Shown here: piece after piece, positions 7,794-26,834 of the stretch
Layout: the number at the start of each line of letters is the position of its first letter
Numbering within the stretch: the stretch's first letter is position 1
Origin: a virus
Reading direction: 5' to 3' (one strand)
DNA: 30,459 nt
IMG/VR virus record: IMGVR_UViG_3300024289_000080
Span: 1 to 30,459 of that record
Made by a program: the position numbers and the translations under genes
The notes under the pieces: model-generated
Database searches by the model: none
What the model saw: the letters and a program-made list of their open reading frames with translations, nothing else
What the model was told of the DNA's origin: nothing

Positions 7794-10700
7794 TTATTGG
7801 TTAACTTGTGACTCAACAAACCTACGATTCGATTTAGTGGTTTCTACACCACCAACAACACCACGTTCACGCTTACGCGCTTCGGCTGGTGCACGGAACA
7901 ACTCAGACATTCCCTGACGCTTGTATCCGTTCCTAACTCTCGACTCTTGCAACTTCTGCCAGTCATCTCGTGCTTCAGCCATTGCTGCTGAGTCACTTGC
8001 TCGAGAGCTTTCAACATAACTTGCTTTAATATCTTTGGCACGTTCTGCATAGAACTTGTCAAACTCGGCAACCACTTTCTGAGTGAATTGTCTGTCTGTA
8101 ACGGTCGAAGTGGGGAGACCAACCAGTTGGAAACCAGCATCAATCATGCTGACTTCATCAGGACTCATCACCAAATCCCCATTGCGCATCGTAATCCCTT
8201 GGGTTGGGAAACGATATGCTTTCATCACATTGGCTACGCCATTAGGCATCGCCATCTCTAGGCCCTTGTAGTAATTGCCTTTGGAAATCAAATCCAATGC
8301 ATCTGCAAACTTCAGCCCCATACTTGCGGCTGGGCCCATCATACCCACCAACATCTTCTCAGCACCGGAGCGGGAAGCCAAGTCAGGTTCAACGAATGGA
8401 CCGAATGGAGACGCAACGTTTTCCATGGACAGCTTCTTGCCCAAAGACTCCAAACCAAAATAAGCAGGCACACCGCGAAGCAACAGGTCAGCGGCAGGGC
8501 CGTCACCTATCATGCGACGTAGTTTGTACTCGTAATCATCGGGTTCATCGGGGTCACCAAACGCTTTCGATGCAAGCCAAGCAATCTGTGAAACAAACGG
8601 CACGCCCAAAGCACCGCCAAGAACTGCCATGTGCGCAACAATGAATTTCAATGAAGCAAACGCTACAGCTCTTTCTTCTTTACTTGCGCCACGGAATGAG
8701 TTGTTAATCAACTTAATCAACATGGACAACTGAATAATTTGGAAGCGTTTGAATTGCCCCAATAAAGAAGCTGTGTTTCCTTGCAGTATGCGAGGCGCAC
8801 TTGTGGAAGTGTATGAACCGTGAGTATTGTCAATAACTTCAGCAGCGTACTTGGTAGCAGCAGCCGTATCACCGTTCTTATAACGCTCAAGGTATCCACG
8901 ATAAGCAGCTACGGCAGCGGCAGCACGATTGATTGACTCAATACGTGTATTGACACCTTTGAGTTTAGCCATGGCTACCTCGAAGGGACCGCGTTCTTCT
9001 GTGCGTGCCTTGATGTCTGTCTCAATACCAATGTCGATCTTACCCATGCCAACCAATGTGTTGAGCATATTGCGCACATCAGAGGGAGCTTGGTTAAAGT
9101 CAATGTGGCCTTCAATCCCAATGTCTTTGGTCAATGGGGCAATATCGCTGTAGGCACGCTTAAGCGCACGACCTGTACGGAAGTAACCAAGACGTCCTGC
9201 CATGTATGGCTGAGAAAGCACCATGGTCTGCACCATCTGCTGGAGATAGAACGCTGGGTTAGTGGACAAAGTCCACAGACTTGTCATGCGTGTTAAGGCA
9301 GTTACCAAGTCGCTGACTGGTTTGTAATCCATACTGAGCGCATTGCGGGCATACAACTCGTTGTACAGGGGGCGTGCTTCTTTCAAATTCTTCTGAGCTT
9401 CGACACGCATTGACTCTAATGAATCAGAGATGGCATCGTTACTTGCCATGGAAGCCAAGAAGTGTGCATCGGCACGGCCACTGGTAGCCAAGTTGCGCAT
9501 CATGTTCTTAGAAGCACCAGCCACATTCTTACGTTGACGGGCACTGGACTCAGCCACAACCATTAGATACAGATCACCAATAGCTTTGGTCAAAGCAGGA
9601 TTAGTATCCTCACCACCGCGCTCAGCCATGCCGCGCAAGCGAGACAGACCATACATTAAATCAGCACCACCTGCGTAAGACGCATGAGCTTCTTTTTCCG
9701 CAGCGTCTTCGGGTTGCACATCATATTGACCAGTTGCGCCCAGTTGAGCAGCAATTTCATCCGCTTCAGCTTGTGTCTCAGCAAATTCCACAACGTAATG
9801 GTTGGGGTCTGAGATGTGGTCTTGCAACCAGTTTTTGGCCTGCTGTGGGTCACCAATGATTGAGTTATCTTTGGTGCGGCTTTCTGTTCCTGAAGCAGCT
9901 TTTTCGTATGCAATAAACTCAGGTGACTTGGCGACCACTACATAGTTTCCGTAGCGTCCAAGGTATGCGTAAGGATTACCGACCTGTACTTGTTGCAAGC
10001 TGGCGATGCGTTTGAGCGCACTTGCCTTTTCTTTGGCAATCTTATCCAACAGATCAGCATCATTGGCTGCAGCTTTTTCGCGTGACTCATATTCACGGTC
10101 GACAGCATCTCTAGCCGCTTGCTTCTTCATTTGCAATGCTTGGTATCCATGCTCAAATACATCTTTAATGAGCTGAGCAGCCGCAGGACTTTGCGCTTGA
10201 ATTTTATTAAACCGTTCTTCAAAGTCTGGGTCGACCTCAAACAACTTAGTACCCACTTGATGTTCACCGGGGTAGTAGCCCCACTTCTTCTCACGAGTGG
10301 AATCAAAAATAAATTCATTGACGCTACCAGAGCCTTCGCCTTTTAGATTGGCAGGCAGTCTGTCATAAGCAGTCAGAATTTTGTTGATGCGGTTTTCAAA
10401 CTGAACACGTGTGGCATACCGAGCGTACTGTGCATCCAAATACTTGGTTGCCGATGGCATAAACTTCTTAGCCATACTGACAATGTCTTCAGTCATTGCC
10501 GCAGAATATAAACCCTTCTTAGCTGCGCTAAGTAGGTTGGTCACAACATTACGAACTGGCTTTCGTAATACCCGTGGTAGTGCGCTGATTACAGTGTCTG
10601 TTGTAGATGGTGCGTTAACACCGAACTTCATAGCCATACCAGTTTTATCTACCAACAATGTAGCATTGCTGTCTAATTCTAGTTTGGGAAGTGTAGTAGC

Positions 10701-13700
10701 CAGTTTATCTACTGGTACAGTAAGTCGACCTTCCACCATACGGGCTTCTTGTTCACCTGCAATTCCATAATACAAGTAACTTCGCATCTGCTCTTCTGTA
10801 ATTTTGTACAGTTCTAGAGCTTGCTGTGCCTTTAAAACATAAGTGTCTACCGCCCTGTCTAAATTCATTTGCAGCCCTGCAGTTTTTACAGGATCAGTGT
10901 TTAAGACTAACTGCAATTGAGCTTCGTTGACCAGATCATCATACCGCGCTATGTGAGAGAGTATTTTTTCAATAGCAAGCGCTGCTTTTTGCTGACCCGT
11001 CTGTCGCAAAATAGCTTCAAACTTAACGAAAGAAACTATAGAGAGTGGATCAGCAATATGGTTTGGTGACCCGCCGGGATCAAAACCTTCAATCTGTTGA
11101 ATAGCGTGTTGGATTTCATGTAGTAATGTAGGCATGTCATCTGGATACTGCCCAGACATTGTTATACGCCCATTGAACGGATCAAAACTGGCATTTTTTG
11201 GTGGCATATCTGCATCAAAAACTAAAGTATAGTCTTTGAGCTGAGGGTACGCTTTAAATAAAGCTGGGTGCTCAAGAACATCCTGCAGCTCGTAGTCGTG
11301 GTCAATTTCGACTCTGTCGTTTTTGAATGGTTTAAATTTGGCATTGGTGTCGGGAATTTCATATTTCCATTTCCCATCTATGCCTTTAAACCAGCCGGTT
11401 TCAACCCACATTTTGTCTTCTGTGGCACCTGCAGCAAACATCAATTTGGCTTTAACCAATTGAGCTTTAAGCTTATCAGTTTCAGCAGGGTCTAAATTAT
11501 AGAATGAACGTTGCCCAGCAATGCCAAACTGTGTGCGATTTGCAGTAGACATGTTGCGCTGTGCGTCTGACATTTCAATTTTTGCAGCACCATAAGCCAT
11601 GTTAACCACGTCTTGTGCAGTCAATTTATCGGTTCTAAAACCAAGCTTACGTGCAATGGCTTGAATGGCTGACCACAAAGTGCGAAACCAAGTAGCTAAC
11701 GGGCCAGTTAACTTTCCTGATGCAGCTGGATCAATACCAGCCAGCATGGATTCTTCAACAAAATATGCCAACAATTCTGCAGGTTTATCTTGAGTTTCAG
11801 TTTGAGCAGCATCTACTCGTGCTTGAGCTTTCTTGGCTATACGGGACTCAAGTGAATTGTCTTTGGATGCAACCCAACGGGCTAACTGCGCAGTAAGTTG
11901 ATCGTAAACAACTTTGGGCAGTAATTTTTCTAAACCCAAATGGGCTCCGACTTCGTGCATAAATTTAGCACGACCTTCGCCTTTACTGATGCGGTTGGCA
12001 ATCAGATACGCAGTGCCGTTTGCTGTAACACCATAAGCACCTTTATTGCCAATAGCTTTGGCAAGGTTCTGTAGGTCTGCTGAATTTGAATTTGCTAAGT
12101 CTTCTAAGCTGCCAACAATAACCAGTTTGCGACCAAGGATGTCTGCACGAATAAAGTCTTTAATGTCTTTGACCAGTTCAGCAGCAGTGTATGGATTAGT
12201 GGCTACACCGTCTTTACCAAACTTGGGGTTTACCGCTTCAGCAGTTCCATCAGTGCCTGTTGTCTCAGGCTTTTCACTGGCCAATACTGTGCCAGCAGGT
12301 TGAGGCTTCTCACCGACAATTTTGACAGCAGCAGCAAGGTTAGCTTGTCCACGGTGGACGAGATCATCCCAACGAGTTTTTTCAGATTTTGCAAGAAGTT
12401 CATATGCGGGTAACTCCGGTGCTAATTGTGATAATGCGGCCCACTCTTCAGCGGGAGTTTTTACTTCTTCGGCTTTGGCTTCTTGCTTGGGCTCGACTTT
12501 GACTTCAGCTTTTCCGGCAGATTTTTTGGGTTTGGCGTTTCCTTTGCCCACCTTTTTGCCACCTCCGGCTGGTTCGCGAACATTTCCCTCATCTGCGCTT
12601 TCGACTTGAACGGCATTCTCATCTCCTTCTTCGGTTACAGCAGCTTCGCCTTTGGCTCTGCGTTTCTCTTGGCCTTTGGCATAGTCTGCCCACAGCTTCT
12701 GAAGCTGTTCTGCTTTGGCAGCACGACGTGGGTCTTTAGGAGGCATTGCTTCCAACTCAGCCTGTAGTTTTTCAACTTTGGCAAAGAACGCAGCACCTTC
12801 ACTATCTACAGCACCTTGGCTACCACCAGCGGTGGACACCATGCCCATGGTCTGACCCTCAGCGTTTTCTTTACCGCCAAGTTCTTCTTGGAGCTTGGCT
12901 CCAGGTTTGCCTTCTTGTTCTCCAGCTTCAAGTTCTTCTGCTAATGATGCGGCAGATTGCTCTTCACCTTCGTAACGAGTATTATATAGACCAGCCAACT
13001 CACCTTGACCAATGCCATCGGGGAATTCAGGTGCTCTATATGCAGCAGCGGCTTCGACAAAACGTGCGGCAAACGCAGGGTCTACTACTTGGAATTCGCC
13101 ATCGACCAACTTAACGCCCATGCGTTCCAGTTGTTTTTCAACAGCGTCAACTTTAAGTCCTGTGTACGCTGCAATATCTGCATGACGAAACTGCTCAAGC
13201 AAAGCCAAGCGAAGGATTTCTGCACGCTTTTCAGCGGGTACAGTATTAGTCCGGTTTTGGATTGGGGCCAAAACACGTAGCAGCAAATCAGAGATTAGCT
13301 GGACGCGACGCTCGCTTGAGATGTGGCTAAGGTCGGTTGAGTAGAAGCTGATGCGGGGGTCGTATGTGCGTGGGCCATTCTGTACAGATTGTTGATCCAC
13401 GTTGGGTGTACCGGCTTGCTGGGATTGACCGGATGTTTCCCCGCCACCCAAAGCGCTTTGGCTGGCTTGTTCACTTGTAGCTCCAGTTACTTGCGACGGC
13501 GCGTTACCATTGCCAACATTGGCATCTGCACTGGTGCCAGTCCGTATTCCTTCTCCTGATAACTGTCCAGTTTGGAGACCAAGCGATCCTTCAGGGACAC
13601 TTCCTGATTGGACGGATTGAACTCCGCTGGGTTGTACAGTCCCATCTGCTGTTGTAGTTGTTTCTCCTGTTCCGCCTTCGACTGGAACTGTTCCCAGCCC

Positions 13701-15557
13701 GGTAGTTGTTTGCAGTGGCAGTTTTCCATCTTTAGCTCCTTTTTCCGCTTTAGCGGTTTGTGCTGCGATAAATCCATCTGTATCTTGACCAGTAATGGCT
13801 TCGTAGATGGCGTTGAGTTGCTCCAGTTGATTACCTTTGGTAGTCGTCGAGAGTTTGTTAAGAATCTGTACGGCCTCATCCAGTGATTGCACATGGTCAA
13901 TCTGGAACTTGGTCATGGTTTTACCCAAGGCGGCTATGGCTTTTTCAGCGGAACCGCGTGGGTTTGTGGCATTAAAACTGAAGCTGACCAATGGGCTTGG
14001 CTTTTCAGGTGTTGCAAACGCTTTGTTTGCTTGCACGATTGCTTTAGCAATCTGCTGCACATGAGGGGGCAGTGTATTGAATACATCTGCAAACCGGTTA
14101 CCAAACGGTGCAATACGTGGGCCAGTAATTGTCTGACCAAAAATGCTTACCGTATCAGGTGAGTACTCGGATGCCAGCACACCAAGAACATCGTCACGCT
14201 TGGCTTGTTGCTGTTGAGCAATTTCAGCTTGTTGATTTTGTGCTGCAGCAGCTTGAGACTGCTGAGCAATATCAGTTGTACCACCTGTGACGACAGGCGG
14301 TGTCATGTTTGCCACTTGGGCTTTGAGTGCTTTGTACTCTTGCTGTTCTTCAGGTGTAAAGAAACGACCTTCAGTGGCTGGAATTTTTAATGGTTGACCA
14401 TCGGGGCCTTCCACGGTGCGTGCAGGTGTGCCTCTACCGATTGCTTCCAACTCAGCCAAACGTGCCATGGGGTCTGGGTGGTTTGCTGGCGTAATAGGGG
14501 GCGTAACGGGTGGGGCTACATTGGCAGTAGGTGTACCACTAACTTCTGGTTGATTAAAGGCTTGCTGAATATCGTTAGTCGCAGGAGTGCTTCTACGCCA
14601 ACCTCCAAGGCCACCACCCATCAAACCGCCAAGGGTTGCACCACCAATAAACGATTCTTTATATCGCTCAAGCGCTTCAGGATCAGTAAGTGTCGCGTTG
14701 GGGTCAACGGCCATACGGCCTGCTTGATTCAATACTTCTTGCCCAGTTTCAGAAATACCTTCTTTCAGTCCAACACCAGTGGCTGTAGCAGTAGTACGAG
14801 CCGCAGCACCCAAGAGACCGCCCGGACGATCAAGTAAATTGATTGTGTTCTTAAATGCACTTCCGCGCATTAACGCAGTGTCAACACCTAAAGCATTTAA
14901 ACCTGCATAAGGAATAGCCAATGCCCCAGCAGCCAATAAATCTGTCTTGCCACTTTGCTCACGTTGGTTACTCAGAATGTCGCCAACAGCAGATGGATAT
15001 GATGCAGCTACGCCGCCAACAGTAGACCCAAGATCAAGAGCTTTTTTGGCAGCCAATGCTTCTTCAGCAGTTTTAGCCCCAGCCAACGCAGCACGAGTAC
15101 CAGACATTACGCCACGAGCAATCAAACCGCCTGTTAGAGCTTCAGCAGCATACGGAGCAGATTGGATGGCTAAGTTTTTTGCATAGCTTCCAAAGTCACC
15201 GACACCTTGAACGTCTTTCCATTCGGTAACAGCGCCCTTGGCTTTTGCACGAGCTTCGGCAACATCAGCCTCCATCTCGTTTGTTCTACGCTGGTCTTCC
15301 AGCCAACTGCTAGTTTTATTCAAGCCAGCAGCTTTAGTTACAGCCTCACCGACACCATATAGCCCCGCTTGGTATCGATCGATAGAGGATGAAAACTGTT
15401 GCCCAGTTACTCCACGGTTAGGATTGCCCACTCCCAGAGAGTTTGCAGCATCAAGAACTGATGTGCCTGTTGTTTTTGCAAACCAATCAACGATGTCCGC
15501 ATCAGACGCATCTTTTGCGTCAGGATACATCTGACGAATCTGGGCTATAGACGGCAT
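7794..15557 (-). CDS. Giant polyvalent internal virion / genome-ejection protein
   Basis: At 2587 residues this one gene fills a quarter of the window. The N-terminus (IRQMYPDAKDASDADIVDWF) resembles the short signature opening many phage ejection proteins. Residues up to about 320 are Gly/Ala-rich with amphipathic or membrane-active stretches. Low-complexity Gln, Gly/Ser and Lys/Glu regions follow to about 1100. Two zincin-like segments come next: HEVGAH (1201-1206, one residue longer than HExxH) and canonical HEIQH (1480-1484) with downstream EQEARMVEGR, as in large-polyvalent-protein peptidase domains. The C-terminal third has TNPAFYLQQM, GQFKRFQIIQL and DLLLRGVP, resembling PLxRG-type proteins. 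It is likely packaged and injected with DNA. No lysozyme or transglycosylase motif was recognised. The gene starts 5 bases after the preceding stop. Confidence 0.88.
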   Translation of the reverse strand: MPSIAQIRQMYPDAKDASDADIVDWFAKTTGTSVLDAANSLGVGNPNRGVTGQQFSSSIDRYQAGLYGVGEAVTKAAGLNKTSSWLEDQRRTNEMEADVAEARAKAKGAVTEWKDVQGVGDFGSYAKNLAIQSAPYAAEALTGGLIARGVMSGTRAALAGAKTAEEALAAKKALDLGSTVGGVAASYPSAVGDILSNQREQSGKTDLLAAGALAIPYAGLNALGVDTALMRGSAFKNTINLLDRPGGLLGAAARTTATATGVGLKEGISETGQEVLNQAGRMAVDPNATLTDPEALERYKESFIGGATLGGLMGGGLGGWRRSTPATNDIQQAFNQPEVSGTPTANVAPPVTPPITPANHPDPMARLAELEAIGRGTPARTVEGPDGQPLKIPATEGRFFTPEEQQEYKALKAQVANMTPPVVTGGTTDIAQQSQAAAAQNQQAEIAQQQQAKRDDVLGVLASEYSPDTVSIFGQTITGPRIAPFGNRFADVFNTLPPHVQQIAKAIVQANKAFATPEKPSPLVSFSFNATNPRGSAEKAIAALGKTMTKFQIDHVQSLDEAVQILNKLSTTTKGNQLEQLNAIYEAITGQDTDGFIAAQTAKAEKGAKDGKLPLQTTTGLGTVPVEGGTGETTTTADGTVQPSGVQSVQSGSVPEGSLGLQTGQLSGEGIRTGTSADANVGNGNAPSQVTGATSEQASQSALGGGETSGQSQQAGTPNVDQQSVQNGPRTYDPRISFYSTDLSHISSERRVQLISDLLLRVLAPIQNRTNTVPAEKRAEILRLALLEQFRHADIAAYTGLKVDAVEKQLERMGVKLVDGEFQVVDPAFAARFVEAAAAYRAPEFPDGIGQGELAGLYNTRYEGEEQSAASLAEELEAGEQEGKPGAKLQEELGGKENAEGQTMGMVSTAGGSQGAVDSEGAAFFAKVEKLQAELEAMPPKDPRRAAKAEQLQKLWADYAKGQEKRRAKGEAAVTEEGDENAVQVESADEGNVREPAGGGKKVGKGNAKPKKSAGKAEVKVEPKQEAKAEEVKTPAEEWAALSQLAPELPAYELLAKSEKTRWDDLVHRGQANLAAAVKIVGEKPQPAGTVLASEKPETTGTDGTAEAVNPKFGKDGVATNPYTAAELVKDIKDFIRADILGRKLVIVGSLEDLANSNSADLQNLAKAIGNKGAYGVTANGTAYLIANRISKGEGRAKFMHEVGAHLGLEKLLPKVVYDQLTAQLARWVASKDNSLESRIAKKAQARVDAAQTETQDKPAELLAYFVEESMLAGIDPAASGKLTGPLATWFRTLWSAIQAIARKLGFRTDKLTAQDVVNMAYGAAKIEMSDAQRNMSTANRTQFGIAGQRSFYNLDPAETDKLKAQLVKAKLMFAAGATEDKMWVETGWFKGIDGKWKYEIPDTNAKFKPFKNDRVEIDHDYELQDVLEHPALFKAYPQLKDYTLVFDADMPPKNASFDPFNGRITMSGQYPDDMPTLLHEIQHAIQQIEGFDPGGSPNHIADPLSIVSFVKFEAILRQTGQQKAALAIEKILSHIARYDDLVNEAQLQLVLNTDPVKTAGLQMNLDRAVDTYVLKAQQALELYKITEEQMRSYLYYGIAGEQEARMVEGRLTVPVDKLATTLPKLELDSNATLLVDKTGMAMKFGVNAPSTTDTVISALPRVLRKPVRNVVTNLLSAAKKGLYSAAMTEDIVSMAKKFMPSATKYLDAQYARYATRVQFENRINKILTAYDRLPANLKGEGSGSVNEFIFDSTREKKWGYYPGEHQVGTKLFEVDPDFEERFNKIQAQSPAAAQLIKDVFEHGYQALQMKKQAARDAVDREYESREKAAANDADLLDKIAKEKASALKRIASLQQVQVGNPYAYLGRYGNYVVVAKSPEFIAYEKAASGTESRTKDNSIIGDPQQAKNWLQDHISDPNHYVVEFAETQAEADEIAAQLGATGQYDVQPEDAAEKEAHASYAGGADLMYGLSRLRGMAERGGEDTNPALTKAIGDLYLMVVAESSARQRKNVAGASKNMMRNLATSGRADAHFLASMASNDAISDSLESMRVEAQKNLKEARPLYNELYARNALSMDYKPVSDLVTALTRMTSLWTLSTNPAFYLQQMVQTMVLSQPYMAGRLGYFRTGRALKRAYSDIAPLTKDIGIEGHIDFNQAPSDVRNMLNTLVGMGKIDIGIETDIKARTEERGPFEVAMAKLKGVNTRIESINRAAAAVAAYRGYLERYKNGDTAAATKYAAEVIDNTHGSYTSTSAPRILQGNTASLLGQFKRFQIIQLSMLIKLINNSFRGASKEERAVAFASLKFIVAHMAVLGGALGVPFVSQIAWLASKAFGDPDEPDDYEYKLRRMIGDGPAADLLLRGVPAYFGLESLGKKLSMENVASPFGPFVEPDLASRSGAEKMLVGMMGPAASMGLKFADALDLISKGNYYKGLEMAMPNGVANVMKAYRFPTQGITMRNGDLVMSPDEVSMIDAGFQLVGLPTSTVTDRQFTQKVVAEFDKFYAERAKDIKASYVESSRASDSAAMAEARDDWQKLQESRVRNGYKRQGMSELFRAPAEARKRERGVVGGVETTKSNRRFVESQVNQ

Positions 15558-22782: not shown

Positions 22783-23382
22783 CTAAGCAGTTAAGACTTC
22801 AAGCGCATGGTTGATATGTTTGATCCGGTCATTCAAGCCAATGGTGCCGCCGTTAATTTTTTTGGTCAGACCAATCCAATCTCCTGCTTCAGCCAATTCA
22901 TTGCATTTACGTGTGGACCAAAACCACCCTGCAGTTAATGCGGCATACATAGGCGTAGCTACTAATTCTGGGTTGGCCCAGAAGTCAACACCAAGTGCTT
23001 TACCAGCATGATAATACCCATCAGAGCCAGTCAGCTGAATACAGCCTCGACCACGAAAACGGTACCCATCTCCACTAGCTTCATCTCGGTTGCCCATGCG
23101 TGACGCATAAACTTTGTTGGCAATCTTCTTAGGTTGTTTCTCGTACTCATTTGCAATCTCTTGAGTAGGAAATCTTTTTGGCCACAGCTTCATCAACGTT
23201 GCAGCACGGTAGTTCAAATTCTCTTCAAGCAATCTAAAGTGTCCGCACTCATGACCACACTGCCCAATAAATGCAGCTTGCTGGCGGGGCGTGCTGATAC
23301 CGAAACGAGTAAACGTTTCATTCAAGGCGTCTACCCATTCTGGGCCAATTTTCAGTTTGGCTAGTTGCTCAGCGTTTAGCAT
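22783..23382 (-). CDS. Endolysin, glycoside hydrolase family 19 (chitinase-like muramidase)
   Basis: The 199-residue protein carries the GH19 signature FIGQCGHECGHF with the likely general acid E45, and then LLEENLNYRA. The block GDGYRFRGRGCIQLTG follows, as in phage endolysins such as that of SPN1S. There is no signal peptide or membrane segment, so release would depend on a holin. GAGGGAG precedes the ATG. The start overlaps Rz by 14 bases. It cleaves peptidoglycan at the end of infection. Length is normal for the family and no key residue is missing. Confidence 0.95.
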   Translation of the reverse strand: MLNAEQLAKLKIGPEWVDALNETFTRFGISTPRQQAAFIGQCGHECGHFRLLEENLNYRAATLMKLWPKRFPTQEIANEYEKQPKKIANKVYASRMGNRDEASGDGYRFRGRGCIQLTGSDGYYHAGKALGVDFWANPELVATPMYAALTAGWFWSTRKCNELAEAGDWIGLTKKINGGTIGLNDRIKHINHALEVLTA

Positions 23383-23836
23383 TTACCAACTCCCTCATTT
23401 CGTTGTAGGTTGAGATGCAGGCGTTGAGCTGGTTGATGGCTGCGTCCCCTTCGGCGACGATGGCTGCAATAGCTGCGAGAGTCTGTCTGTCAGATTCGCT
23501 TGTCTCGGTGTCGCGATTGCTGTCGGCAGGGGCGGTACCTGTGGTGGGTTGTACACAACTGGAGGTGGGGAGGCGCAGCTTGCCAGCACGAATGGCGCGA
23601 TCAAGGGCAGTAGTTTTTTGATTGAGAGCATCATTAGCCTCCTGTAGCTTGTTGGTTTGTGCAATAACTTTACTGGTCATGGTCCGTTCAACTTCACGGG
23701 CCTCCTCATTTTTCTTAGCAATTTCAATTTGCATTTCAGCATCACGCTCAGACCAGCCAACATGATGCCCGTAGAAATAAACACCAAGAGCTGTAACAAT
23801 AGCGCCTAGGATTACATAAGGGTTGAATATACTCAT
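23369..23836 (-). CDS. Rz: Inner-membrane spanin subunit (Rz-like)
   Basis: The 155-residue protein has one N-terminal transmembrane segment (about 7-24, YVILGAIVTALGVYFYG). A periplasmic charged coiled coil (30-85) and a Cys-containing tail follow: a type II membrane topology typical of i-spanins. In Gram-negative hosts it joins an outer-membrane lipoprotein to fuse the two membranes after the cell wall is cut. It overlaps the upstream membrane gene by ATGA and the endolysin by 14 bases. It encloses the complete Rz1 frame, a classical nested arrangement. Sequence identity to lambda Rz is not claimed; the call is by topology, position and nesting. Confidence 0.9.
   Translation of the reverse strand: MSIFNPYVILGAIVTALGVYFYGHHVGWSERDAEMQIEIAKKNEEAREVERTMTSKVIAQTNKLQEANDALNQKTTALDRAIRAGKLRLPTSSCVQPTTGTAPADSNRDTETSESDRQTLAAIAAIVAEGDAAINQLNACISTYNEMRELVNAKR
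23395..23631 (-). CDS. Rz1: Outer-membrane spanin lipoprotein nested inside Rz (Rz1-like)
   Basis: A frame in another register inside Rz begins at ATG 23634 or 23631. AGGAGG (on the minus strand, 23643-23638) is 3 bases from the first ATG and 6 from the second, so I prefer 23631 (78 residues). The signal peptide MLSIKKLLPLIAPFVLASC ends in a lipobox (L-A-S-C, lipidated Cys19). The mature part is very Pro/Thr/Gln-rich (SPPPVVYNPPQVPPLP), as in Rz1 proteins. It pairs with the Rz coiled coil across the periplasm. Cys and proline-richness together make this call strong despite the small size. Confidence 0.92.
   Translation of the reverse strand: MLSIKKLLPLIAPFVLASCASPPPVVYNPPQVPPLPTAIATPRQANLTDRLSQLLQPSSPKGTQPSTSSTPASQPTTK
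23638..23643 (-). promoter_or_regulatory. Consensus AGGAGG ribosome-binding site for nested Rz1
   Basis: AGGAGG on the minus strand lies within the Rz coding sequence, 6 bases before the ATG at 23631. It is the only full-consensus ribosome-binding site I noticed in the lysis block and selects the internal start in a different frame. Confidence 0.85.
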
Positions 23837-24366
23837 GTCTCATTCCTTGCGAGTGAACGCTCTAGAGCAATATCCCCACGTTCGGGATGTTCATGGTCGG
23901 CTGAAGTTGTCGGAGGTGGGCCGGGTGTCCAGGACTCATCAAGTTGAGGATTTACCCAGACCGGCATCTGTCCAAAGGGTTGACCAGCAATTACTGGTGA
24001 TGCACCGGAAGAAGTTGATACTGGTGGGCATGGACTTGCGTTGCCACTTGGTGGATATGTTTGTGTAGTTGTAGAACCGGTTGCTGCACCTACGGCACGC
24101 TTACCAACAATACCGCCAATACCGCCCACAATTAACAACACAATATCGTTGAGCATCTTGGTGTAGGCTTGGTCAATCGGAGCCATGCTCTTAATTGGTT
24201 GTGTAACAAACGTCACTGAATACAACAGTGCAAACACAATCCCAAACAAAATGATTGTGATCATGATAACCACGAAGCCCCAGATGCGGACTTCGATTTC
24301 GTCCGCAGTCAGTTTATGCTGCGCGTCACTTCTGAAGACTTGATTCAGGAACTTGAGGGGGTTCAA
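23833..24366 (-). CDS. Two-segment membrane protein, candidate holin
   Basis: The 177-residue protein has two hydrophobic segments (about 28-54, IWGFVVIMITIILFGIVFAL, and 72-94, NDIVLLIVGGIGGIVG), followed by a Pro/Ser/Thr-rich tail without further membrane spans. Two spans beside Rz and endolysin make it the best holin candidate of the cluster, although the long extra-membrane tail is atypical. A GGAGAAG lies about 14 bases before the ATG. It overlaps the lipoprotein gene by 41 bases and Rz by ATGA. It could instead be a virion membrane anchor. Confidence 0.75.
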   Translation of the reverse strand: MNPLKFLNQVFRSDAQHKLTADEIEVRIWGFVVIMITIILFGIVFALLYSVTFVTQPIKSMAPIDQAYTKMLNDIVLLIVGGIGGIVGKRAVGAATGSTTTQTYPPSGNASPCPPVSTSSGASPVIAGQPFGQMPVWVNPQLDESWTPGPPPTTSADHEHPERGDIALERSLARNET

Positions 24367-24532
24367 TTTTCTTCTCCAGTATGGGCGCTACAAGATACTC
24401 AGGACACATCTGCGTGAACAGACACTTTGGTTTTTGGCATTCAGGTTTGTAAAAGTTGTCAGGGTTTTGGCATGGGTATCTGTAAACATCTTTACAGCCT
24501 GTCAACAATAAAACCAGAATGAGGTATTTCAT
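24326..24532 (-). CDS. Small Cys-rich lipoprotein
   Basis: The 68-residue protein starts with MKYLILVLLLTGC, a short signal peptide with a lipobox (L-T-G-C, lipidated Cys13). A Pro/Cys-rich segment follows (YPCQNPDNFYKPECQKPKC, then CPEY), with paired cysteines likely to form disulfides in the periplasm. It is distinct from the nested Rz1 lipoprotein. Such late small lipoproteins in other phages (for example Cor or Llp) block superinfection by covering an outer-membrane receptor, so that is a reasonable but unproven role. It is ATGA-coupled to the upstream gene and overlaps the holin candidate by 41 bases. Confidence 0.82.
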   Translation of the reverse strand: MKYLILVLLLTGCKDVYRYPCQNPDNFYKPECQKPKCLFTQMCPEYLVAPILEKKIEPPQVPESSLQK

Positions 24533-24684
24533 TTACCAAGCCCAACTTTTCCAAGCAACAAATTGACTATCTTGTCTGCCAAGTCGTTTGGCAAAAACTT
24601 AAGAAACCCAAGAAAATAAAGTGCCACACAGCCGTAAATAAAAATCTTGAGTGCGAGATCAAACGTCTTTTGGTATTCATTCAT
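24529..24684 (-). CDS. Very small single-pass membrane protein
   Basis: An in-frame ATG at 24714 exists, but the ATG at 24684 overlaps the upstream stop as ATGA, so I choose the 51-residue form. It has one hydrophobic span (about 10-30, LALKIFIYGCVALYFLGFL), then a short charged loop and a Gly/Leu/Lys-rich end. It could be an antiholin or a small holin-like pore protein in the lysis cluster, but there is no family match. It is co-translated with the upstream coiled-coil membrane protein and the downstream lipoprotein, both through ATGA. Confidence 0.65.
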   Translation of the reverse strand: MNEYQKTFDLALKIFIYGCVALYFLGFLKFLPNDLADKIVNLLLGKVGLGK

Positions 24685-25181
24685 CGTCCACCACACCTTC
24701 TGGTTGTATGACAAAAATCAATCATTTCATTCACACCAACAAAAAGTATAAATAGTACAAAGAACGTACCGCCAATAATCATCGCCCATTCTTGCATCTC
24801 TTGATCTTTGGCCTTGGCTTCCTTCTCAGCCTTCTTTAATGCACTTAATTCTTTAGCATCTGCCAAGTCCATTTCTGCTTGACGGGCTTTGATCTTGTTC
24901 CAGACATCAATCTTGCCTGTCTGCATGAAGAGCATCTTCAACTCTTCTTCAAACGCACGGGCTTGTTCTAGCGCCATTTCAATTTCAAGAGCAGTTCCCA
25001 TATTGGAACCTTTCTTGCCAGACTTTGCTTGCAGCATTGCCTTGGTAGCTTGACTCTTGGCGTCAAACATTTTGCCCAGCATGGGCGCTAATGAACCTAG
25101 GTCATTGGCAACTTTACTTGCCTTCTTGACCATACTGATGGCGCTTTGCAGGCCATTCAGTGCCGTGATTGGGTCAATCAT
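24681..25181 (-). CDS. Coiled-coil protein with C-terminal membrane segment
   Basis: A GTG one codon upstream is also open, but the TGATG overlap points to the ATG at 25181 (166 residues). The N-terminal part is helical. The segment SNMGTALEIEMALEQARAFEE and a Lys/Ala/Glu helix (about 105-130) look coiled coil. One hydrophobic span (WAMIIGGTFFVLFILFVGV) sits near the C-terminus, followed by a short Cys/Arg tail. I recognise this architecture as recurrent in environmental phages, without a known function. Its place among the lysis-associated membrane genes suggests a role at the inner membrane. Confidence 0.8.
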   Translation of the reverse strand: MIDPITALNGLQSAISMVKKASKVANDLGSLAPMLGKMFDAKSQATKAMLQAKSGKKGSNMGTALEIEMALEQARAFEEELKMLFMQTGKIDVWNKIKARQAEMDLADAKELSALKKAEKEAKAKDQEMQEWAMIIGGTFFVLFILFVGVNEMIDFCHTTRRCGGR

Positions 25182-25414
25182 CACTTATCCTGTTTTGAGT
25201 CTAACTTGTCAAAGATTTGCCTCAGAATAGTTTTGATCTCTGCAATGTCAGACTTGTAGTCGTCCTTTTGGACGTAGTCTCTAAGCAGATTCTCCCGCAA
25301 AGAATTGGCGTCATCTTCCAACTTCTGAATCTTGCGGGTCGTTTGGTTAAACACGAACACAGCCAAGAAGGCTGCGATTGCCACAACAAAATTAAATATC
25401 TGTTGGTTGTCCAT
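25181..25414 (-). CDS. Small membrane-anchored coiled-coil protein
   Basis: The 77-residue form starting at ATG 25414 (MDNQQIFNF) is favoured by the TGATG overlap with the upstream gene; a GTG just before it would add one residue. One N-terminal hydrophobic span (about 8-22) is followed by a charged coiled coil (KLEDDANSLRENLLRDYVQ, then DIAEIKTILRQIFDKL). The protein belongs to a type often seen next to phage lysis genes and might be a spanin-like or holin-partner protein, but no function is assigned. It is likely anchored in the inner membrane with the coil on one side. Confidence 0.8.
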   Translation of the reverse strand: MDNQQIFNFVVAIAAFLAVFVFNQTTRKIQKLEDDANSLRENLLRDYVQKDDYKSDIAEIKTILRQIFDKLDSKQDK

Positions 25415-25773
25415 CACTTCAGATTTCGTAATTTATACAGGGTACTCAAGTATTCTGCAACGGCTTCATCAATGATATTCTGAAGTGCAGTGTCTGTCTT
25501 GTTAACAGCTGTGTACCGAATCTTTTCTACAGAATCTAAATGACGGGCCAACACATCGGCGGGCTCACCTGTATCTGTCTCTTCCAGCATGGGAATGTCG
25601 TCAATGATGCCGTGACGCCCTTGGTAGGCTTCAGTCAGAGAGTCAGCAATGCCCACGATGCTGGCGTAGAAATCACCCAGCGCCATGTGCTGGGCGTAAC
25701 TTGTTGTACGTAAGTGCGCTCTGTGCGCATATTCACGGCTTAAGAACAGCAGTGCAATCAGTCGTCCGATCAT
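25414..25773 (-). CDS. DUF5856-like four-helix protein
   Basis: The 119-residue protein carries REYAHRAHLRTTSYAQHMAL and then DFYASIVGIADSLTEAYQGRHG. This resembles DUF5856, a phage family with a ferritin-like helical bundle look (His, Tyr and Glu spaced along helices). No clear di-iron ligand set is complete, so iron binding is not claimed. The ATG overlaps the glycosyltransferase stop as ATGA. The family call is by memory of the motif wording; its role in the phage is unknown. Confidence 0.75.
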   Translation of the reverse strand: MIGRLIALLFLSREYAHRAHLRTTSYAQHMALGDFYASIVGIADSLTEAYQGRHGIIDDIPMLEETDTGEPADVLARHLDSVEKIRYTAVNKTDTALQNIIDEAVAEYLSTLYKLRNLK

Positions 25774-26834
25774 GTCAACTCCACGGTAGGATTCATAGAC
25801 GCAAGGTTAGCTACAAGCCTGCTGTCCGTAGGGTTGAATTCTAGAGCTTTTTTGCAAAACTCGATAGCAGAATCTTTCAGTCCAAGGTTCCATGCAGCGA
25901 TGCTGGCAAGGTCATATGGTTTCTCAGTCCATACTGATGGGTCCATCGTATACACCAACTCTTTGTTTTTGATGTTCAGTGCAGACAAAGCAGCAGCGTA
26001 AGACTCAGCCCACATCGATCTGCGGTAGCACATCAGAGACAATTCAACCCATGGCTCACGTGTTCCGGGGGCTTCGGCAACAGCAAGGCGTGCCCACTTC
26101 AGAGCTTCTTCTGTATGCCCCAGTTCGTCGTGTGATTTAGCCATGAGGCGCATAGCGTAGGAACGCTCGTTCTGCCAAGTGGCCTCAGGCATGTTCAGAT
26201 ATTTATCAAGGGCTGCAATGGCTTCTTGCCAGCGGTAGTAGAAGGTCAGCTCACGGGCATGATAAAACGCGTTACGTGGGCAACGTGGGTCTTCTGCCAC
26301 AGCCAGTTCCAGCAGCGGCATGTACTGTCCACGAGATTTAGTATTGTCAGGATGGTGGCTGACTAACAGCATATCCGTGTGGGCGTAAACTTCCTTGGTA
26401 CGGTTGTCAGCTCGGGGGTACTCATGAACTGGGTGGTGCCAGTGATAACCGGTGCGGTGATGAATCTTTTCGTAGAAAAAACTAATTCCACAACCCCAGT
26501 CGAATTTATAGCGTAGACGGGTTGTGTTATCTGTCCAAACACGTTCAATCTCTTCACGCCAGCCGGGCTCCAAGACTTCGTCCAAGTCGAGCGAGATGCA
26601 GACATCATAGTCTCCGGGAATCAGGTTAAGGGCAGTGTCACGCGCCTTGTCGAAACGCCAAGGTCTAACGGATATGTCATACACCGTAGCACCCAAAGAG
26701 CGGGCAAGACCAGCGGTGTTATCTGTAGAACCTGTATCAGCAATAAGAATAAGGTCAGCATCTCTGGCAGATTCACAGAAGCGTGCTACAAATTGTTCTT
26801 CGTTTTTACTGATGGCGTATACGGCAATTTTCAT
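25770..26834 (-). CDS. Family 2 glycosyltransferase with C-terminal TPR repeats
   Basis: This 354-residue protein has an N-terminal GT-A domain. IADTGSTDNT (31-40) is the nucleotide-sugar loop, SLDLDEVL (81-88) holds the D83/D85 DxD metal site, and HHPVHEYP (133-140) is a likely catalytic region. From about 170 to the end, helical pairs such as EALKWARLAVAEAPGTREPW and SAIEFCKKALEFNPTDSRL are TPR repeats. The fusion is known for GT2 enzymes acting on proteins or glycans. Located between tail-chaperone and lysis-associated genes, it may glycosylate a virion protein or alter the host surface. Start follows TAAAGG; the stop overlaps the next gene by ATGA. No signal peptide, so cytoplasmic. Confidence 0.9.
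   Translation of the reverse strand: MKIAVYAISKNEEQFVARFCESARDADLILIADTGSTDNTAGLARSLGATVYDISVRPWRFDKARDTALNLIPGDYDVCISLDLDEVLEPGWREEIERVWTDNTTRLRYKFDWGCGISFFYEKIHHRTGYHWHHPVHEYPRADNRTKEVYAHTDMLLVSHHPDNTKSRGQYMPLLELAVAEDPRCPRNAFYHARELTFYYRWQEAIAALDKYLNMPEATWQNERSYAMRLMAKSHDELGHTEEALKWARLAVAEAPGTREPWVELSLMCYRRSMWAESYAAALSALNIKNKELVYTMDPSVWTEKPYDLASIAAWNLGLKDSAIEFCKKALEFNPTDSRLVANLASMNPTVELT

Follow-up and report, generated by a model that had tools for sequence, protein, structure and literature searches.

The timing of lysis is known in detail for a few cultured phages. Two-span holins (class II), of which S of phage 21 is an example, are described in PMC13056207, which also reports that a two-span and a single-span protein, LysF1a and LysF1b of the mycobacteriophages Girr and NormanBulbieJr, are both needed for efficient lysis. 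Phage Mu has the releasin gp25 (DUF2730), according to PMC9239132 a single-span helper able to act beside the endolysin. Here we compare with these systems the lysis region of an uncultured phage, IMG/VR record IMGVR_UViG_3300024289_000080 (hereafter the window, 30,459 bases in full). On its minus strand, the genes follow each other in the order DUF5856-type gene, cc78, ct167, ss51, lp68, tm177, Rz (with Rz1 nested in it), GH19 endolysin and a gene for 81 amino acids (aa). The original prediction had pointed to five overlapping membrane or lipoprotein genes before Rz, cc78 to tm177, which might form an undescribed complex for lysis timing or envelope protection. All five are present, and their junctions match the description at the sequence level; as to their novelty, our search of the open-access literature found no paper on the arrangement, the family names or the motifs, which agrees with the word undescribed.

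Our results place all five genes within the lysis cassette, a link that is well supported, and divide them into three separable blocks, lp68 with tm177, ct167 with ss51, and cc78. The central block consists of lp68 (24326..24532, minus strand as all genes of the region), a Cys-rich lipoprotein of 68 aa from the YRYxCQ family with the lipobox LLLTGC and four more Cys, and the candidate holin tm177 (23833..24366), a protein of 177 aa with a TTG start, two spans and a Pro-rich tail. Read 5′ to 3′ along the minus strand, the five genes are joined by TGATG, ATGA, ATGA and, between lp68 and tm177, a 41-base overlap, and tm177 runs into Rz by another ATGA. The reading that we prefer, with about even confidence, is that the run supplies the membrane proteins of a modular lysis cassette, with tm177 as holin or holin subunit, lp68 as its standing partner and the others as accessory lysis factors. 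tm177, produced shortly ahead of the endolysin, would then presumably form the pore or a subunit of it and open the inner membrane, letting the GH19 endolysin reach the wall, after which Rz/Rz1 would complete the break. The small Cys-rich domain of lp68 would be located beyond the inner membrane, where it would most likely bind the conserved inter-span loop of tm177, thereby setting or triggering the time of lysis. ct167-ss51 would be a second, movable membrane pair, in which a helical protein, cytosolic but anchored at its C-terminus, joins a single-span peptide, and would most likely supply, like the optional cc78, accessory holin- or antiholin-like factors.

Scans of viral contigs yielded at least 543 confirmed relatives of lp68 and at least 597 of tm177. 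The best 80 loci were kept from each scan, so they do not represent a random sample; overlap and charge counts refer to sequence clusters, scan counts to raw loci. Together with the slice of the window and two GenBank entries, both scans formed a first-pass set of 160 loci, which fall into 80 clusters, so that the recurrence of the genes is more than chance. Profiles refined by iteration detected lp68 and tm177 in all 160 of these, Rz in 155, Rz1 in 149, the endolysin in 147, ss51 in 130, ct167 in 129 and cc78 in 16, with ct167-ss51-lp68-tm177-Rz-Rz1-endolysin as the commonest order. The full counts for lp68 and tm177 are partly circular, as the loci had been retrieved with one of the two and the window is among them. 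A further scan was therefore anchored on the endolysin; 49 of its 80 loci were testable and 31 were too short upstream. lp68, tm177, Rz and Rz1 occurred in all 49, placed before the endolysin, whereas ct167 was present in 22, ss51 in 15 and cc78 in 10. The original prediction had proposed such a survey and named scattered or absent genes as evidence against it; this applies in part to the scarce cc78. Among cluster representatives with both ends set, overlaps were found for lp68/tm177 in 79 of 79, for tm177/Rz in 77 of 78, for ct167/ss51 in 46 of 56 and for ss51/lp68 in 28 of 57. Where ss51 and lp68 are about 165 bases apart, the gap contained an open reading frame (ORF) of 56-58 aa joined by ATGA at both ends in 10 of 10 printed loci. 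This ORF (e.g., in L067, L059 and L137) encodes a soluble protein, MRITTYQQNAKML...

The lipoprotein and its two-span partner also occur together in distant relatives. A tblastn search over 50,697 phage records found the pair in four, none of them naming a cultured host. A lipoprotein-family match came from DSL-LC01 (OQ999401), a phage assembled from a lake metagenome with Actinomycetia as predicted host (PMC10611076). There, the lipoprotein gene overlaps by ATGA the gene for a 98 aa two-span protein, which matches phrog_25359 (E 2.8e-17), the same family that is matched by tm177 (E 3.3e-11). In a scan with the DSL-LC01 lipoprotein, 79 of 80 viral loci contained the two-span core motif, the exception being L361, which stops shortly after the lipoprotein; 70 of these 79 had the two genes overlapping or at most 60 bases apart, and nine had about 440-700 bases between them. 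The intervening gene encodes a GH25 muramidase in L347 (E 1.4e-30) and is without Pfam match in L362. In all, hundreds of contigs from uncultured aquatic phages have the pair tied to lysis genes, and these belong to several enzyme classes. Across 40 aligned lipoproteins, R18, Y19, C21, Q22, P24, C32, C37 and C43 (window numbering) were invariant. The lipobox Cys was found in 79 of the 80 loci and is replaced by a membrane span in L396, as it is in the YRYxCQ protein of GenBank record MW202675. The positions of YRYxCQ domains held by a span rather than by lipid are 3550-3762 in L396 and 2810-3013 in L002.

We regard tm177 as the first holin candidate because it is the only credible multi-span ORF and keeps a constant place beside the endolysin and the spanins. 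Its spans cover approximately residues 30-48 and 75-93, and its two predicted spans, small size and constant position in the lysis operon are as in a class II holin. No other credible ORF of the window has two or more predicted spans (an antisense-looking ORF at 2-346 with two weak spans was set aside), and the same was found for 40.0 of the 41.5 kb of the related genome G001. Among 80 representatives, 66 start with ATG and 14 with TTG, and the TTG of the window aligns with the ATG of most relatives. Like S of phage 21, tm177 is small, spans the membrane twice and lies near endolysin and spanin genes; unlike that group, it has no holin-family match, carries a conserved Pro-rich tail and always comes with a Cys-rich lipoprotein, and the endolysin here is without a signal-anchor-release (SAR) segment, as span prediction found no hydrophobic segment in it. 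This endolysin (22783..23382) is of the GH19, chitinase class I type (phrog_181 endolysin, E 6.8e-76; PF00182, E 1.7e-10, above cut-off). LysF1a/LysF1b are the nearest studied arrangement in function: two-span and single-span proteins likewise stand side by side with endolysin genes, and cc78 shares the predicted N-out/C-in single span of LysF1b, but no shared family was found, and the present cassette adds a lipoprotein, a tail-anchored helical protein and spanins and has cc78 as an option. We infer a contact between lp68 and tm177, and a control of timing by it, because lp68 is the constant partner and the conserved parts of both would face the same side if tm177 is oriented N-in/C-in.

The second block, ct167 (24681..25184 or 25181; 167 aa, helical, C-terminal span, Cys-containing tail FCxTTxRCGR; phrog_32327, E 1.8e-11) and the single-span peptide ss51 (24529..24684; 51 aa), is exchangeable. 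In all 27 endolysin-anchored loci that lack ct167, a larger protein is encoded whose span is C-terminal; 26 of them also encode a small single-span protein. This pair lies directly before lp68 in 22 loci, in four an ORF of some 200 codons sets it apart, and in one locus only the larger member was found. ct167 and the alternative larger proteins align with an hhalign probability of 76% over 38 columns, and one of two tested matches phrog_32327 (E 1.4e-4); judged from sequence, they may be distant ct167 relatives. For ss51 and the alternative small proteins, the comparison detected no relation (hhalign probability 0.6%). In G002 (L412, 908-2350), both kinds of pair stand in tandem before lp68, 260 aa plus 106 aa followed by the ct167 and ss51 types.

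Conversely, ct167-ss51 is found with other lysis genes. A ct167-anchored scan gave 53 testable loci (27 of 80 end too early downstream), 44 of them with lp68 and tm177 and nine with neither. In four of these nine (L265, L274, L300 and L323), the downstream genes encode a membrane protein of 167 aa from phrog_6637 and a GH24 lysozyme, and GenBank record MW202710 has the same order, ct167-ss51-phrog_6637-lysozyme. Over all 80 loci, tm177 occurred in 56, the phrog_6637 gene in seven, both in none and neither in 17, many of which end early. MW202879 has a ct167 homologue immediately followed by a PF11351 holin (E 3.6e-9, above the Pfam cut-off; phrog_3427 holin, 4e-26) and, after it, a gene annotated as peptidase M15. 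Thus, ct167 or ct167-ss51 stands immediately upstream of two further holin/endolysin sets, which shows that the position after it is the holin/endolysin place and supports the link to lysis that the original prediction had proposed. No result favoured envelope protection, the other role named there, above a control of lysis. As lp68-tm177-Rz-Rz1-GH19 is replaced as a whole set, the alternation with phrog_6637 does not alone single out tm177 as the holin.

ct167 is oriented N-in with its tail out. Its span starts at residue 133 of 167, and among 61 representatives 52 have more K/R before the span, nine are equal and none is reversed. The tail Cys pair was found in 58 of the 61, and the rest of the protein has 0.05 Cys on average. 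For ss51, K/R are more frequent after the span in 36 of 57 representatives, equal in 12 and reversed in nine. The ct167 model (mean pLDDT 83.9) has four helices; among viral folds it best matches phage proteins that are uncharacterised (E 6.5e-10 at best), the fold comparison gave no solved structure at E ≤ 0.001 and is uninformative on function, and the profile search of solved structures returned two weak matches (best E 0.49). The tail Cys pair was retained whether lp68 was present (57 of 57 loci) or missing (9 of 9), so that it does not need lp68; a disulfide between the ct167 tail and lp68, considered as an argument for a complex, was therefore rejected. Small proteins ending in CxxWxW...VxCLxW, mostly with a signal-like start, are encoded just upstream of ct167 in L265, L274, L319 and L323 and at 4879-5004 of L327; by eye, they have no relation to the five genes.

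Several results weigh against tm177 as holin and against the cassette as we read it. tm177 matches no known holin family (PF07332, Phage_holin_3_6, E 0.18, below the cut-off; otherwise only phrog_25359), and profile searches of solved structures gave no match for it, nor for lp68. Its mean K+R number in 79 representatives is 2.3 in the N-terminal part, 1.85 in the loop and 1.3 after span 2, so that charge does not fix its topology. For lp68, the structure model is weak (mean pLDDT 71.4, pTM 0.36) and gave no clear fold, and the overlap of the lp68 and tm177 genes would by itself make both move together. ct167 lies apart from recognised lysis genes in five of the 53 testable loci (L298, L299, L306, L310 and L319); in L298 and L299, an opposite-strand gene downstream of ct167 appears, by eye, D-alanyl-D-alanine carboxypeptidase-like, and PMC10611076 reports a gene for such a carboxypeptidase in DSL-LC01. 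Finally, the gene before the pair in DSL-LC01 weakly matches the holin family phrog_443 (E 1.5e-5), with a better match to phrog_26427 'nuclease' (4.6e-18). Given this weakly holin-like gene, tm177 might have another role, such as that of an antiholin. It could then act as antiholin or timing factor, while ss51 or ct167, single-span proteins in the style of class III, make the lesion and lp68 helps to sense the envelope. LysF1a/LysF1b offer a precedent, as the single-span protein can be the active holin and the two-span one dependent on it (PMC13056207). We consider this unlikely, since tm177 is constant while a different pair, or in one case its larger member alone, takes the place of ct167-ss51 in the endolysin-anchored loci without ct167, and since ct167-ss51 also precedes sets with a holin of their own.

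Two other functions were weighed for lp68. Phage lipoproteins of Gram-negative and Gram-positive hosts can exclude superinfection (Ltp type, Llp, Cor), and lp68, with or without tm177, might accordingly be a system for superinfection exclusion or receptor masking within the late operon; the presence of the pair in a predicted actinophage, whose host lacks a conventional outer membrane, would fit. Yet the only library match of lp68 is Cor phrog_1119 (E 0.068), confined to residues 1-23, the signal peptide, with no Cor-type homology over the mature domain, and its constant coupling to lysis genes and to the two-span protein makes this function rather improbable. Less probable by far is a second spanin set of lp68 and a membrane partner, although lp68 adjoins inner-membrane proteins with coiled parts. 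The cassette already has an inner-membrane Rz (i-spanin, 23369..23836; phrog_1327 Rz-like spanin, E 7.8e-12) and the nested lipoprotein Rz1 (o-spanin, 23395..23631; 78 aa, lipobox LASC; phrog_3198 Rz-like spanin, E 3e-5), which had been absent from the original prediction and with Rz makes a two-component spanin. lp68 is thus an additional lipoprotein for which the cassette offers no separate i-spanin. An i-spanin has an N-terminal span and a periplasmic bulk, whereas the span of ct167 is C-terminal and its bulk lies on the K/R-rich, cytosolic side; furthermore, relatives of lp68 occur in the predicted actinophage. Among the ten cassette proteins, the only further spanin match was that of cc78 to phrog_739 (E 0.0077). 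Family-library searches gave no homology match of lp68 to a T4 RI-type antiholin, a kind that delays lysis through holin binding by its extracytoplasmic domain.

A comparison with G001 revealed that parts of the cassette have separate histories. Nucleotide identity is 99.2% for cc78, 98.8% for ct167, 100% for ss51 and 98.3% for the endolysin, but 79.7% for lp68, 67.8% for tm177 and 86.1% for Rz; the transitions fall within lp68 and Rz and are sharp. Beyond the cassette, identity ranges from 78.7% (gene 25770-26834) to 84.2% (25414-25773). Therefore, the near-identical flanking tracts were recently shared and the diverged lp68-tm177 part was not, as inferred from this one pair of genomes. One stable envelope complex of all five proteins, as originally predicted, is hard to reconcile with such separate exchange and is in our view very unlikely. 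The overlaps do chain all five genes in the window, and few membrane proteins of the phage are encoded outside this run. Nevertheless, the genes split into the three blocks: cc78 is rare and ct167 far more frequent in the first-pass loci, ct167-ss51 occurs without lp68/tm177 in nine of the 53 testable loci, and in five ct167 is apart from recognised lysis genes. As its Cys pair persists in all nine loci without lp68, the ct167 tail is no argument for a complex either.

The third block, cc78 (25181..25417 with a GTG start, or to 25414 with an ATG start; 77-78 aa), has an N-terminal span followed by a charged C-terminal helix. Despite its match to phrog_462 'lipoprotein' (E 1e-9), the protein of the window has no lipobox, and the charges in 6 of 6 representatives agree with a single N-terminal span oriented N-out/C-in. 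It resembles Mu gp25 in the one N-terminal span, the predicted N-out/C-in orientation, the charged cytosolic part and the place in a lysis cassette, and differs in having no DUF2730 match, in lying upstream and not downstream of the endolysin and in the endolysin being without a SAR segment. Pfam searches with cc78 found only DUF4446 (E 0.053), without DUF2730 and without DUF2746 at E up to 1.

The structural genes point to phages of many proteobacteria as relatives (31-34% identity). A search of genome contigs retrieved three contigs of metagenome-assembled genomes (MAGs) from three phyla. A search of 300 genomes from the order to which the Burkholderiales MAG belongs detected the two-span family in that MAG alone, and the lipoprotein there and marginally in one other (E 9.9e-4, 34 aa frame). 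The families phrog_25359 (tm177), phrog_32327 (ct167) and phrog_6637 (the alternative holin-like gene) have no assigned function in the library. Should lp68-tm177 prove to be a holin together with its lipoprotein partner, the pair would represent a type of lysis control missing from the cultured models and provide a function for families now listed as unknown; the movable pair ct167-ss51 accompanies unrelated sets of holin, or holin-like, and endolysin genes. Lysis cassettes are already known, and the lipoprotein-two-span unit may be more than a variant of them. A tentative and, taken as a whole, doubtful proposal is that the YRYxCQ lipoprotein and the phrog_25359-type protein constitute a new lysis unit, in which the holin loop would be held by a lipid-anchored, disulfide-stabilised domain and the envelope state would time lysis. 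Such a unit would extend across uncultured aquatic phages, whether or not their hosts have an outer membrane, and would have exchangeable tail-anchored pairs stacked on it.

Two further genes of the window deserve mention. The DUF5856 gene (25414-25773; PF19174, E 3.1e-16; phrog_858 'starvation-inducible transcriptional regulator') lies immediately upstream of cc78. An ORF of 2587 aa at 7794-15557 takes up about a quarter of the record and probably encodes a large internal or virion-associated protein.

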